Below are positions 43,647-47,770 of a stretch of 64,000 bases of DNA, piece by piece (position 1 is the stretch's first letter; the number at the start of each line of letters is the position of its first letter). The stretch comes from Nonomuraea muscovyensis (GTDB taxonomy: Bacteria; Actinomycetota; Actinomycetes; Streptosporangiales; Streptosporangiaceae): positions 744,001 through 808,000 of the forward strand of contig NZ_JACHJB010000001.1 of assembly GCF_014207745.1 (NCBI RefSeq). The letters run 5' to 3'. The notes under the pieces are model-generated. The model was not told where the DNA came from. It did no database searches and saw only the letters and a list, made by a program, of their open reading frames with translations. A program made the position numbers and the translations under genes.

Positions 43647-45635
43647 CTACTCGGCCTGGTCGGCCTTGTCGGCGCGGTTGAGGCGGGCCAGGTAGGCGTT
43701 GTAGGAGTCGAGCTCGACGTCGCCGCCCGAGCCGCGGTCGGCCTTGCGGTCGGCGCGCCGGGCCGTGCGGTCCTCGTCCTGGTACCACTGCACGGCGATG
43801 GCCAGCAGCACCATCAGGGTCGGGATCTCGCCGAACCCCCACGCGATCGCCCCGCCGTTCTGCTGCTCCTCCAGCAGCGGCCCGCCCCAGGTGCGGCCGA
43901 GCTGGTCGTACCAGTCGGCCGCGATGACGGTGCCGGTCATCATGAGCGCGACGCCGAAGAAGGCGTGGAACGGCATGGTGACGAAGAGGACCAGCAGCTT
44001 GCCCACGTACGGCAGGCGGTGCGGCCCCGGGTCGACACCGATGATCACCCAGAAGAACAGCGAGCCGCTGATGAGGAAGTGCAGCGTCATCCAGATGTGG
44101 CCGAGGTGCTCCTGCATCGCGGAGGCGAACAGCGGCGTGAAGTACAGCGCGTACGTCGACGCGATGAAGATCGCGGTGGCGATGGCGGGATGGCCGGCGA
44201 TCCGGACGAACCTGCTGTGCAGGATGGTCGTCAGCCACTCGCGCGGCCCCCTGTCGCCGCGCCGGGCGGCGGGCTTCAGCGCCCGCAGCGCGAGCGTGAC
44301 CGGGCCGCCCAGCACCAGGAGGATCGGCACGATCATGGCCAGCGTCATGTGCTCGATCATGTGGACGTCGAACATGACCTTCGCGTAGCGGGCCAGGCCG
44401 CTCTGGGTGGCGAAGACGAGGATGACCACGCCGGCGAACCAGGAGGCGGTGCGGCCCCACGACCAGGAGTCGCCCCGGCGCCGGAGCCTGATCACCCCGG
44501 CCGCGTACAGGCCGCCCAGGAGAGCGGCGACCAGGGCGAAGAACAGGTCGAGCCACCACAGGGAGAAGATGTTGGCCAGCGAGATCGGCGGCGGCACCGG
44601 GTAGCCGAGCAGCTCGAAGGCGCGGTCGGCGGGCAGGCTGGAGGGCGGCGGCGGGGTGCGCGACAGCGCGACCGCCAGGCCGACGGTGGCGAGCATGAGC
44701 AGCGCCTCGCCGCCCGCCAGCCGGGTGAACGCGCCCGACCCGCCCTTGGCGAGCGCGCCGAGCGTGCGCTCCCGGTGCCACCACCCGGCGTAGCCGAGCA
44801 GCACGAACGCGATGACCTTGGCCACGATGAGGACGCCGTAGGCCGACGTCCACAGGTCGGACAGGGCGGTCAGCCGGGCCAGCACGCTGAACACCCCGGA
44901 GGCGCCCACGGCCACGTAGCACCACAGGGCGAACCGGGAGAAGCGGGCGGCGGCGAGGTCGAGCTGCGGCGCGCCGCGCACGGCGTGCAGCGCCAGCACG
45001 ACGAGCCCGCCGACCCACAGGGACAGCGAGACCACGTGCAGCGACAGGGCGGTGGTGGCCAGGCCGTGGTTGGGGGAGGAGGAGGCGTGGCCGGTGAGCG
45101 TGGGCGGTAGCAGCGTCGCCAGCGCGAACACCAGCAGCCCGAGCGCCGCGCCCGCCGTGATGGAGCCGCGCGCGAACAGCGCGATCGCCAGGCCGAACAG
45201 CACCACGAGCGTCAGCGCGACGCCCTGGCTGGTCTGGGTGGCGTAGCTGTTGAGGTAGGCGCCGTTGAGCAGCACCTCGCCGACCGGCATGGCGGCGGTC
45301 TCGGCCATGCCGAACACCAGCGTCGCGAACGCCGCGGCCGACCAGGCGAGGCCGGTCCACGAGGCGGCCCGGACGTAGCCGGTCGCGGCCTTGCCGAGCA
45401 CGCCCTTGTCGCCGGGCAGCAGGGTGGCGGCCATGAGCAGCAGGCCGACGGTGAGCACGCCGGCCACGTCCATGGTCAGCTGGGACAACGGCAGGCCCCA
45501 GCGGGTGACCGCGCCGGCGTCGGGCAGGCCGGGGATGATGCGGGGGAAGGCCGCGCCACCGGCGATCATGGCGATGACCAGACCGGCGATCGCCGCTCCG
45601 GCCGCGGCGAGCGCCAGACGCGCGGCCCTGGTCAC
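43647..45635 (-). CDS. CopD-CtaG fusion (copper handling/cytochrome oxidase assembly)
   Basis: 662 residues with about sixteen spans. The N-terminal half is CopD-like (SLHVVSLSLWVGGLVVLALH with His). The C-terminal half is a caa3-type CtaG domain with MFDVHMIEHMTLAMIVPILLVLGG, HFLISGSLFFWVIIG and MPFHAFFGVALM, whose His residues likely bind Cu. Such fusions are common in actinobacteria and move copper for oxidase assembly or detoxification. It overlaps copC by 4 nt. Confidence 0.9.
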   Translation of the reverse strand: MTRAARLALAAAGAAIAGLVIAMIAGGAAFPRIIPGLPDAGAVTRWGLPLSQLTMDVAGVLTVGLLLMAATLLPGDKGVLGKAATGYVRAASWTGLAWSAAAFATLVFGMAETAAMPVGEVLLNGAYLNSYATQTSQGVALTLVVLFGLAIALFARGSITAGAALGLLVFALATLLPPTLTGHASSSPNHGLATTALSLHVVSLSLWVGGLVVLALHAVRGAPQLDLAAARFSRFALWCYVAVGASGVFSVLARLTALSDLWTSAYGVLIVAKVIAFVLLGYAGWWHRERTLGALAKGGSGAFTRLAGGEALLMLATVGLAVALSRTPPPPSSLPADRAFELLGYPVPPPISLANIFSLWWLDLFFALVAALLGGLYAAGVIRLRRRGDSWSWGRTASWFAGVVILVFATQSGLARYAKVMFDVHMIEHMTLAMIVPILLVLGGPVTLALRALKPAARRGDRGPREWLTTILHSRFVRIAGHPAIATAIFIASTYALYFTPLFASAMQEHLGHIWMTLHFLISGSLFFWVIIGVDPGPHRLPYVGKLLVLFVTMPFHAFFGVALMMTGTVIAADWYDQLGRTWGGPLLEEQQNGGAIAWGFGEIPTLMVLLAIAVQWYQDEDRTARRADRKADRGSGGDVELDSYNAYLARLNRADKADQAE

Positions 45636-46234
45636 GTGCGCTTCTTCCGCATGCTGAGGACGAGGCCGATGCCGATGCCGGCCAGGGCTCCGACGACGAC
45701 GAGCAGCCAGACGGGGAAGGTCGCACCCGTGCTCCGCTCCTCCATCGCGGCCTCCGTCGGCGCGACCGCGCTGCCCTGCGCGGTCGGGGCCGAGGGCGCC
45801 GCAGTGGGCGCCGCGGTCGGGTCGGCGGCGGGGGCCGCGCCGTCGGCGACGGACGGGGTGGCCGACGGGGTGGCGCCCTTGACGGTGAACGGGATCTCAC
45901 CCTCGATCGGGTGTCCGTCGGAGGAGACGACCCGGTAGGCGATCGTGTACGCGCCGTCGGGCAGAGCGCCCTTGAGTTCCTGGGTCACCACGGACCCGTC
46001 GAGCTCCGGCTTGCCGAGATGGTGCTGCTCGTCCCCGGGGCCGCGCACGACGACGATCGGCATGCGGACCCGGGCGGTGAACTCCAGCGTCACCTTCTCC
46101 ACCTTCTTGACGGTGGAGTCCTTGGCCGGGTCGCTGCTCTTGAGCGCGTCGTGTGCGAGGGCCGGCCCGGCCGTGCCGAGCAGGAACAGGGCGGCGAGGA
46201 TCGCGGTGAGCGCCGCGAGAGGGGATCTCTTCAT
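45632..46234 (-). CDS. CopC-domain periplasmic-type copper-binding protein
   Basis: 200 residues. A signal peptide ends PALA, leaving an N-terminal His (HDALKSSDPAKDSTV), the first ligand of the CopC copper site. The second ligand is the His in VSSDGHPIEGEIPF. A Pro/Ala-rich linker and a C-terminal span (VWLLVVVGALAGIGIGLVL) anchor it to the membrane, and MRKKRT faces in. It probably passes Cu(II) to the CopD-CtaG fusion encoded next. Starts ATG 44 nt after the XRE-TPR gene's stop, so the three genes may be one transcript. Confidence 0.92.
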   Translation of the reverse strand: MKRSPLAALTAILAALFLLGTAGPALAHDALKSSDPAKDSTVKKVEKVTLEFTARVRMPIVVVRGPGDEQHHLGKPELDGSVVTQELKGALPDGAYTIAYRVVSSDGHPIEGEIPFTVKGATPSATPSVADGAAPAADPTAAPTAAPSAPTAQGSAVAPTEAAMEERSTGATFPVWLLVVVGALAGIGIGLVLSMRKKRT

Positions 46235-46278
46235 GACACCCCCAAGGCTACCCACGCCACCGCCCGGTCCCTCCCCCG

Positions 46279-47562
46279 CTACAGCCCCACGCAGGCGAGG
46301 GCGCGCTGGTAGGCCTCCGTGGCGCCGTCGGCGTCGCCGAGCTGCTCCATGGTCTCGGCCGCGGCGTACCAGGTGCCCGCCTCGCGGCGGGAGTCGGGCA
46401 GCGGCGTCAGCCAGTCGCGGACCGCGGCCAGCTCGCGCTCGGCGTCGTGCGGCCTGCTCAGCCCGGCGTAGGCGCGGCTCAGCAGCAGGTGGGCCTCGGC
46501 CTCCTGCGCCCGGGCCGTGCCCGGCAGCAGGTCCTGGGCGGCGCGGCCGTGGCCGACGGCCCGCTCGAAGTCGCCCGCCACCAGCTCGGCACGGGCCAGC
46601 TCCACCCGGGTGTTGGCCCTGTCGAGGGTGCTCGCGGACGTCTGCGCCAGCTCCTCCTCAGCCCGCAGCAGCAGGCCGCGCACCTCGTCGACGGCCTCGG
46701 GGCGGACGCGCAGCTTCAGGCTCGCGTACGCGACGCGGGTGCGGGCGAGGCCGCGGGGCTGGCCGTTCTCCGACTGGATGGCCAGGGCGCGCTCGGCGAA
46801 GGTCAGCGACTCCTCGCCGTGGCCGGTGCTCTCAGCGACGGCGGCGGCGTTCCAGCAGGCGGCGACGATCGCCCTGGGCGTGCCCAGCATGTCGGCCGCG
46901 TTGAGCAGCTCGGCCGCGAACTGCCGGGCGCGCAGCAGGTCGCCGCTGAGCAGGTAGGCGCCGAGGAGGGTCGCGCCCAGCTCGACCAGCCCGTCGGTCC
47001 AGGTGGGCCGCGCCGAGCCGCCGAGGATGGCCTCGCCGACCTTGATGGCGTCGCTGAGCCGGTCACTGAGCCGGTAGACGCGGCACAGGGCGATGGCGAG
47101 GTCGATCTGCCGGTCGGGGCCGAGGTCCTCGGCCTGCAGCCGGCGCAGCATGGAGATCGCCTCGCCGAGCTCTCCGCACGCCTCCATCGCCAGCGCCAGC
47201 CCGTACTGGGTGTCTTGACGTAGAGATGTCAAACCTGCCAGGTTATGGTTCGCCAGCAGTTCGGCGAAACGGGTGCGGGCCTCCTGGACCTCACCGTTCT
47301 CCAGGGCCATCCTCGCGTAGCCGAGCGACAGCTCGATGTCCTCCATCTGCTCGGCGGTCACGCCGTTGAGGAGGTAGGAGAGCGAGCAGTCCAGCTTCTG
47401 GGCCAGCAGTTCGAGAACGGCGGGGGTCGGAGTACGCTTGCCACTCTCGATCAAGGAGACGTAGCTGTCCGACAACTCCGGGTGTGCCAGCTGTGCCTGC
47501 GAAAGGCCCCGTTGCCGCCTTACCGTCTTGATGCGGAGTCCGATCAGGTCAGATGTGGTCAC
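46279..47562 (-). CDS. XRE-family regulator with TPR sensor domain
   Basis: 427 residues. Residues 1-65 form an XRE helix-turn-helix (GLRIKTVRRQRGLSQAQLAHPELSDSYVSLIESGKRTPTPAVLELLAQKL). The remaining ~360 residues are repeated helical pairs with TPR-like spacing (for example RTRFAELLANHNLAGLTSLRQDTQYGLALAMEACGELGEAI and later LLLSRAYAGLSRPHDAERELAAV). This architecture matches Firmicute RRNPP receptors that bind secreted peptides. GTG at 47562. Divergent, 58 nt away, is a small secreted-peptide gene, and downstream in the same direction are copC and copD-ctaG. The inducer is therefore probably the peptide or a copper-linked signal. Confidence 0.87.
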   Translation of the reverse strand: MTTSDLIGLRIKTVRRQRGLSQAQLAHPELSDSYVSLIESGKRTPTPAVLELLAQKLDCSLSYLLNGVTAEQMEDIELSLGYARMALENGEVQEARTRFAELLANHNLAGLTSLRQDTQYGLALAMEACGELGEAISMLRRLQAEDLGPDRQIDLAIALCRVYRLSDRLSDAIKVGEAILGGSARPTWTDGLVELGATLLGAYLLSGDLLRARQFAAELLNAADMLGTPRAIVAACWNAAAVAESTGHGEESLTFAERALAIQSENGQPRGLARTRVAYASLKLRVRPEAVDEVRGLLLRAEEELAQTSASTLDRANTRVELARAELVAGDFERAVGHGRAAQDLLPGTARAQEAEAHLLLSRAYAGLSRPHDAERELAAVRDWLTPLPDSRREAGTWYAAAETMEQLGDADGATEAYQRALACVGL

Positions 47563-47620
47563 AGCTCCCGCTCCCTGAGATGATGATGTCCGAGCAACCC
47601 ATAGGCGAGGGAGAACCCCC

Positions 47621-47770
47621 ATGCGCAGGCGCATCGCCCTGTCCCTACTTGCTGCCTTGCTGACGGCAAGTGTGACCGTCGCAGGCCATGCTACGGCGGC
47701 GGCAGCCGACTCGTCTCCATCCGGTTCAAGTGGAATCATGGCGACTTACGACATTCCTCTCTGCTGCTAG
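47621..47770 (+). CDS. small secreted peptide precursor, divergent from the XRE-TPR regulator
   Basis: 49 codons, ATG at 47621 and TAG at 47768-47770. GAGGGAG (47607-47613) sits 7 nt before the ATG, a strong ribosome binding site. The product has a Sec-type signal peptide: a basic n-region (MRRR), a hydrophobic core (IALSLLAALLTASVTVA) and Ala-rich c-region, with likely cleavage after Ala29. The mature part is about 20 residues, Ser/Gly-rich and then ending M-A-T-Y-D-I-P-L-C-C. The size and layout are those of pheromone precursors; the terminal Cys-Cys could be oxidised, modified or bind copper. Codon use is normal for the genome, except a run of TC-rich codons. No homologue is recognised. 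Confidence 0.72.
   Translation: MRRRIALSLLAALLTASVTVAGHATAAAADSSPSGSSGIMATYDIPLCC

Follow-up and report, generated by a model that had tools for sequence, protein, structure and literature searches.

We consider it likely that two divergent genes in a stretch of Nonomuraea muscovyensis DNA (contig NZ_JACHJB010000001.1, positions 744,001 to 808,000, 64,000 nucleotides (nt) in all; hereafter the window) form a cognate peptide-receptor signalling pair that would work like the RRNPP systems. One gene encodes an XRE-TPR regulator, which combines a helix-turn-helix (HTH) domain with tetratricopeptide repeats (TPR), and the other is a 49-codon gene for a peptide that ends in Cys-Cys (CC). An earlier note on this DNA had proposed such an RRNPP-like pair of TPR regulator and secreted peptide in an actinomycete, and comparison with related genomes supports the proposal in three ways: the two genes are linked, the end of the peptide is constrained and the receptor groove changes with that end.

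The small gene (47621-47770), which the earlier note placed between the start of the XRE-TPR gene (47562) and pucR, is a genuine gene, and its product is a member of a peptide family without annotation. The open reading frame (ORF) encodes MRRRIALSLLAALLTASVTVAGHATAAAADSSPSGSSGIMATYDIPLCC, which has no match in Pfam (E <= 0.001) or NCBIfam (E <= 0.1), and a search of the 9.23-Mb genome found the window copy as the only convincing match. It is preceded by the Shine-Dalgarno-like sequence that the earlier note described as strong, and 77 of 78 named relatives have GGAG ahead of the peptide gene. The predicted signal peptide has a basic RRR start, a hydrophobic core and AAA at the predicted cut (AxA near residue 29), and all 148 distinct peptides examined have a cut-like site under a loose rule; the assignment fits by composition, which is its only basis. 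Likewise, the YDIPLCC end of the product stands as described, and its length of about 20 residues would follow from the position of the cut. The promoters of the two genes presumably overlap or sit inside the partner gene. An attenuator or leader peptide is rejected, given the divergent orientation of the ORF and the position of pucR, the next likely gene, on the opposite strand.

The linkage of the two genes was followed in the Streptosporangiaceae. A receptor search of 200 genomes of this family gave matches in 128 at E <= 1e-40, and 110 of the listed loci were read, 30 of them given and 80 picked. In 82 of the 110 loci, an ORF that begins like a signal peptide and ends in CC lies divergent to the receptor gene, and 17 loci have one of like design with another end (LGWNHPD, YGWGWPG, PWGYPI and others); a short propeptide with a signal-like sequence, again by composition only, therefore adjoins the receptor in 99 loci. 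Trp occurs near the end in 16 of the 17 other-end peptides, the exception being L105, which ends LGPLNNAE. The picking scripts favoured ORFs with a CC end, and an end-blind rule that takes the most hydrophobic candidate was used as a check. This rule again gave CC in 82 of the 110 loci, with 18 other ends and 10 loci with none; one of the 18, L142, was counted as a chance ORF, which leaves 17 other ends and 11 loci without a peptide. Two further loci deserve mention: L261 has only 288 nt of upstream sequence, and the peptide-like ORF of L156 runs past the contig end; L156 was counted as none and excluded from the receptor tree.

Among the 80 named loci, a script found a peptide in 78, of which 72 end in CC and six are of the Trp type; with the window added, 73 of 79 peptides end in CC and six in a Trp motif. 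By comparison, only five of the 3565 other ORFs of 30-70 amino acids (aa) in the 80 named loci end in CC. A scan that allowed TTG starts looked on the divergent side of the XRE gene, up to 260 nt away, for a CC ORF with a basic start and a hydrophobic stretch, and it found one in 73 of 79 named loci, including L242 and L251, which have TTG starts and were missed by one script. The same kind of ORF was absent beside four control genes: copC (0/79), ctaG (0/79), pucR (0/63) and the XDH gene (0/66), or 0/287 in total. Sixty further loci, 37 of which have receptors already seen, yielded 55 CC peptides, four of the Trp type and one tandem precursor. The same frame is kept beside receptors down to about 40% identity, and a close receptor (E <= 1e-100) is present in 143 of 341 family genomes.

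The pair is also present outside the family. A class-level receptor search gave matches in 48 of 296 genomes at E <= 1e-60, and 16 of the 18 non-family loci carry a CC ORF on the divergent side. The two exceptions are L156, as noted above, where the contig end cuts a signal-like divergent ORF, and L158, which has none on the divergent side. In the family labelled f19, the receptor is present in 21 of 22 genomes and the CC peptide in all 20 loci that are readable to their end, the 21st being cut by a contig end. In a distant genus with large genomes, only two of 13 genomes have a close receptor; each of the two has a CC ORF some 230-280 nt upstream in divergent orientation, and no CC ORF was found beside five weaker XRE matches in that genus. 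Eight larger and more distant stretches have three divergent CC ORFs, three convergent ones and two with none. The convergent CC peptides lie downstream of the receptor (L258, L263 and L265), and L258 is the same gene as L158. Finally, the four loci L275-L278 represent distant relatives elsewhere in the phylum; their divergent ORFs of 28-40 aa end in SFPWGGT, GYPWPK, SFPGP or GFPWPK, and these FPWPK-like ends are possibly a third peptide type. Frame, position and C-terminus are thus kept beside XRE-TPR genes both within the family and beyond it, which was the conservation that the earlier note had asked about.

The pattern of substitution points to selection on the end of the protein. In 40 genes of the Nonomuraea group (780 pairs), the last two codons have a proportion of non-synonymous differences (pN) of 0, with synonymous TGC/TGT changes, so the C-terminal Cys residues are under protein-level constraint. 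As raw and partly saturated proportions, the ratio of pN to its synonymous counterpart (pN/pS) is 0.96 for codons -7 to -3, counted from the C-terminus, and 0.71 for the signal region. Forty close pairs have 289, 199 and 330 differences at codon positions 1, 2 and 3, respectively, which is a mild coding pattern. A fixed CC with diversifying residues in front of it is the pattern, at the level of sequence, that would be expected of a pheromone core.

Two precursors, both of the other-end clade, carry repeats of their end motif. L346 (genome G976, Streptosporangium clade; + strand from 322) encodes a 91-aa precursor with four copies of GWNGPD, while the precursor of L347 (+ strand from 297) contains LGWTYPE and SAWTYAE, two ends that are related. 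The tandem copies suggest that it is the C-terminal core that is released from the precursor. Repeated pheromone copies in one secreted precursor are described for RRNPPA systems of the Bacillota in a section of PMC11343458; here, they are found in two precursors of the other-end clade, with several copies in L346.

A change of the peptide end goes along with a change of the receptor groove. A tree of 127 receptors places the 17 other-end loci in one clade of 21 (Shimodaira-Hasegawa-like approximate likelihood ratio test 100), the remaining four members of which have no peptide; the clade is that of Streptosporangium, Planomonospora and Planobispora. Four TPR positions, 198, 234, 238 and 271, are at least 93% conserved in the 98 receptors with CC peptides and switched in the other-end clade, for example, T198 to Q, A234 to L and N238 mostly to G or A. 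N238 itself is found in 92 of the 98 CC-type receptors and is mostly lost in the other-end clade. Three of the four switching positions are canonical TPR ligand positions (Fisher p 0.010-0.041 at three thresholds), with the ligand numbering taken from general knowledge and the register from the helices of the structural model. Five new receptors of the other-end clade all have Q198, L234 and G238.

Within the CC class, 135 distinct receptor-peptide pairs were compared. Columns at ligand positions were more informative than other columns on peptide positions -3, -4 and -5 (p 0.003, 0.017 and 0.024); for positions -6 to -10, the same test gave p 0.058, 0.047, 0.0008, 0.14 and 0.12. When the set of concave positions was shifted along the receptor, the best p was obtained at zero shift (0.0022). 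The residue just before CC displays the clearest pairings. Gly at -3 is paired with L, M or T at receptor position 201 (12/12), His with E205 (9/9) and a residue other than Asn at 238 (8/9), Glu with R204 (7/9), the single Arg with D204, and Trp with G204 (6/7). Of 296 receptor positions, 201 has the strongest inverse correlation in size with -3 (rho -0.52; the next is -0.38), and 204 is third. In Acrocarpospora phusangensis (FHCC, E238), both partners differ from those of two sister species (FMCC, N238). Corrected for the tree, and given as means over pairings that go the same way, the other way or are tied, the counts are 4.0/0/2.0 for Gly with 201, 3.6/0/1.4 for His with E205, 4.3/0.2/0.5 for His with 238 and 4.4/0.9/2.7 for an acid at -3 with basic residues or Gln at 204/205; an acid at -3 with an acid at 204/205, where the opposite is expected, gave 0/1.2/6.8. 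These results support the view that the -3 residue co-varies in size and charge with positions 201, 204, 205 and 238, which would be expected to face ligands. As a side observation, position 238 is Glu in five receptors without a peptide (L134, L136, L137, L140 and L142), as it is in the related L138, L139 and L141, whose peptides end in HCC.

Predictions fixed before the data were retrieved were also applied to 23 new receptors, 18 of which have a CC peptide. Gly at -3 came with a large residue at 201 in 3/3 cases, all 93-94% identical to earlier rows, other residues at -3 came with S, A or G at 201 in 15/15, and Trp at -3 came with a small 204 in 1/1. N238 is present in 18/18, one of which, with Asp at -3, carried no prediction, and one of the 18 (L318) does not have T198. 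None of the new pairs fell under the His or Glu/Arg predictions. No prediction failed, and the check adds little independent weight.

The receptor itself looks suitable for such a role. R270 and R274, which may contact the C-terminus of the peptide, are present in 99% and 100%, respectively, of the 98 receptors with CC peptides, and the proposed binding patch consists of T198, G201, L204, L205, A234, W237 and N238. An AlphaFold2 model (mean predicted local distance difference test score 91.3) has nine helix pairs after the HTH domain, and the TPR superhelix is supported by the Pfam TPR models, by this model and by Foldseek matches to PlcR, RapJ and NprR. A profile search with the receptor gave E-values of 2.2e-7 for NprR, 1.5e-6 for PlcR and 4.2e-4 and 5.3e-3 for Rap proteins; Foldseek matched PlcR with peptide and DNA (E 8.5e-7), RapJ with peptide and the Rap of phage phi3T, and gave template modelling scores of 0.55/0.64 for NprR. 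The modelled fold would fit an RRNPP receptor, and the fold does not prove common descent with RRNPP proteins. The closest named receptor is that of Nonomuraea indica (87%). The genome has a second gene of the receptor family (L174, 2643769-2645064; two receptors at E <= 1e-6), and no small hydrophobic peptide-like ORF was found in its 1.5-kb flanks.

Several observations weigh against a signalling pair of this kind. As mentioned above, 11 of the 110 loci have no peptide. In the profile search, designed TPR proteins and LGN scored as well as or above NprR and PlcR, and the RRNPP matches of Foldseek stand among generic TPR proteins, some of which rank beside or above them; along the same lines, a section of the RappLS20 study (PMC7430634) states that LGN-like proteins can be structurally nearer than some RRNPP members. 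The loss of CC fits one event in the tree, and so the changes of groove and peptide end may amount to one observation. Within the CC class, it was peptide position -8 that had the lowest p of all, two of the 22 control positions in the signal peptide reached p < 0.02, and p was also low (0.009-0.045) when the concave set was moved by -3 to -6. E205 occurs in 30 rows, only nine of which have His at -3, the others having Tyr, Gly and more; Asp at -3 is mixed, with H, Q or K at 205 in seven of ten rows and Glu in one; and for charge, position 205 ranks only fourth. The -3 contrasts were chosen after looking at the data, and their tree-corrected forms rest on 5-8 independent pairs each, none reaching p 0.05. 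Taken together, the evidence argues for a ligand pair, and it does not extend to a signal that travels between cells.

The steps that we infer for the pair, namely export, cleavage, re-import and density sensing, could be as follows. The peptide gene would be translated into a precursor of 40-50 aa, which the signal peptide would export. Signal peptidase, and then extracellular proteases, would release a short C-terminal peptide, here about YDIPLCC, and this peptide would re-enter the cell via an oligopeptide permease of the Opp type; the genome has 20 permease-type genes of the SBP_bac_5 family, which are common and not specific. Judging from the co-variation, the XRE-TPR protein would take up the C-terminal end of the peptide in its concave groove, around TPR repeats 4-6; R270/R274 may then lie close to the peptide C-terminus. 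Binding would alter HTH control of the shared 58-nt promoter region, and the pair would therefore be self-regulating and probably have other targets as well. CC would serve as the fixed anchor and the preceding residues would set specificity; in the Streptosporangium/Planomonospora/Planobispora clade, CC would have been replaced by an end mostly of the GWxxPx type. That the peptide is the ligand, the central claim of the earlier note, is well supported, though indirectly, by the joint change of groove and end and by the repeated end motifs.

A more far-reaching form of this proposal seems to us unlikely. It would make the pairs a pheromone superfamily native to the Actinomycetota with a fixed C-terminal vicinal dithiol, in which an extracellular disulfide (a ring or a dimer) would protect the signal, the cytosol would reduce it and the free CC would then fit the groove of TPR4-6; the dithiol would have been lost once, in the Streptosporangium clade. 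If this were true, the receptor would integrate cell density with redox or import history.

Among the rival explanations, a receptor that senses the peptide, or the cut signal sequence, inside the producing cell comes first, although we judge it improbable. Such a cell-autonomous timer or secretion-stress sensor would not need re-import, which is our inference only, the spacing of 58 nt between the divergent genes would be in keeping with local feedback, and the groove co-variation would be equally expected. However, the conserved signal-like start of the 148 peptides (by the loose rule) and the repeated ends in L346 and L347 point to an exported propeptide that is cut by proteases, and permease-type genes, common as they are, are present. 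Somewhat less probable still is a peptide that is only the regulated product, for example, an antimicrobial, envelope or redox peptide, with the XRE-TPR protein as its regulator and some other molecule as the ligand. Small secreted peptides beside their regulators are common, and CC could form disulfides, but this explanation predicts neither that the -3 residue should track receptor positions 201, 204, 205 and 238 nor that a conserved groove should switch with the peptide end.

The gene context in the Streptosporangiaceae raises another explanation, namely that CC binds Cu(I) and that the system regulates the downstream copper genes. Of the 80 named Streptosporangiaceae loci, 79 have copC downstream of the receptor in the same orientation, and ctaG/copD follows in 79 as well; L227 is without copC, and the L198 stretch stops before ctaG. 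However, no match to copC or ctaG was found in the stretches of 8-14 kb read beside the pairs in f19, in g52, which is a genus of the same family, and in other families. The neighbours there are, for example, ribonucleotide reductase genes in f19 (L256) and a Ppx/GppA gene in g52 (L266), and the six named other-end loci keep copC and ctaG although their peptides have no Cys. Since the stretches read from other families gave no match to these genes, copper control is rejected as a general explanation, and we judge copper or redox control very improbable. As judged from these loci, the pair is a more constant unit than its gene context. The weakest rival, a chance ORF or a conserved non-coding element, fits a short ORF without a database match, but is contradicted by the CC ends of 73 of 79 peptides against 5 of 3565 background ORFs, by the 0/287 controls and by the frame kept to about 40% receptor identity, and we regard it as practically excluded.

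With regard to known systems, the pair resembles PlcR-PapR, NprR-NprX, Rgg-SHP and PrgX-cCF10/iCF10 in that a cytoplasmic HTH-TPR regulator is encoded beside a signal-peptide precursor of 40-50 aa with a variable C-terminal core, in the aromatic-Asn pair on a TPR helix and in the tandem pheromone copies of some members. It differs from these HTH-TPR systems, which are those of the Bacillota, in being found in the Actinomycetota, mostly in divergent order, in its fixed C-terminal CC or GWxxPx-type end and in the nine modelled helix pairs after the HTH domain. To our knowledge, no RRNPP pheromone has a fixed C-terminal CC. Rap proteins have no HTH domain and act on proteins. In RapF, according to a section of PMC3601957, Arg223 forms a salt bridge with the C-terminus of PhrF and Asn227 binds the peptide backbone, the peptide being extended in the TPR groove. 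These two residues are four apart, like receptor positions 234 and 238, and W237-N238 would match Tyr226-Asn227 by spacing, not by alignment. The receptor differs from RapF in having Ala at position 234, and the role of the Arg could fall to R270/R274.

TPR-receptor peptide quorum sensing has so far been described for the Bacillota and their phages. The gamma-butyrolactone signalling of Streptomyces has an enzyme-made small molecule, a TetR-type receptor and no peptide, and shares with the present pair only that it is actinobacterial signalling. The large RRNPP survey (PMC10075063) covers Firmicutes and viruses, and it describes actinobacterial signals as typically enzyme-made small molecules. 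In two evolutionary studies of RRNPPA (PMC9765709 and PMC12700828), a term search found no word starting with Actinobacteria or Streptomyces, and the same kind of search of a review of quorum sensing in Actinobacteria (PMC4748050) found TPR in tables and neither RRNPP nor oligopeptide. We found no actinobacterial RRNPP-like pair in our searches of open-licence papers, and a precedent may exist in preprints and in most subscription journals, which lie outside that scope. The peptides are short and clade-specific, and a conserved pair would open actinobacterial physiology, perhaps including silent antibiotic clusters, to control with cheap synthetic peptides.

Table 1. Features of the peptide-receptor locus and its downstream neighbours, with positions in the window.
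Feature	Position	Strand	Basis or remark
Cys-Cys peptide gene, 49 codons/49 aa	47621..47770	+	ATG to TAG ORF; divergent from the XRE-TPR gene
Predicted Sec signal peptide, residues 1-29	47621..47707	+	Composition only
Predicted exported part, residues 30-49 (20 aa)	47708..47767	+	From the predicted cut site
YDIPLCC, likely signal core	47747..47767	+	CC codons 47762-47767; CC invariant, codons -7 to -3 hypervariable
Shine-Dalgarno-like GAGGGAG of the peptide gene	47607..47613	+	7 nt 5' of ATG
Divergent intergenic region, 58 nt	47563..47620	.	Distance between the two start codons
XRE-TPR receptor/regulator gene, 427 aa	46279..47562	-	GTG start; HTH_3, TPR_12 and TPR_14 above Pfam cut-offs
HTH DNA-binding domain, residues 11-64	47371..47532	-	Pfam HTH_3, E 3.1e-11
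TPR-like superhelix, residues 70-424	46291..47355	-	Helices of the AlphaFold2 model
Proposed peptide-binding patch, residues 198-238	46849..46971	-	Switches with peptide type; co-varies with the residue before CC
R270 and R274, proposed contacts of the peptide C-terminus	46741..46755	-	Conservation in CC-type receptors; role putative
Shine-Dalgarno-like AGGGAG of the XRE-TPR gene	47571..47576	-	Sequence
copC-like gene, downstream context, possible target	45632..46255	-	Pfam CopC
CopD/CtaG-like gene, context	43647..45635	-	Pfam

Some minor observations concern the surroundings and relatives of the receptor. A Cys-rich protein is encoded between the XRE-TPR gene and copC/ctaG in L268 (7767-8969) and L272 (6598-7758), and both proteins match DUF5685 in Pfam. 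The protein has an MFGxxRPC start and a Cys-rich tail, and by eye it is also present in L271 (4692-5984) and L273 (8309-9643). The 11.85-Mb Nonomuraea gerenzanensis replicon NZ_LT559118.1 is filed among plasmids and looks like a chromosome. An XRE-TPR protein that is 33.6% identical to the receptor is encoded at 80-1069 of MT836207.1, an unannotated 'Bacteriophage sp.' contig from human faeces.

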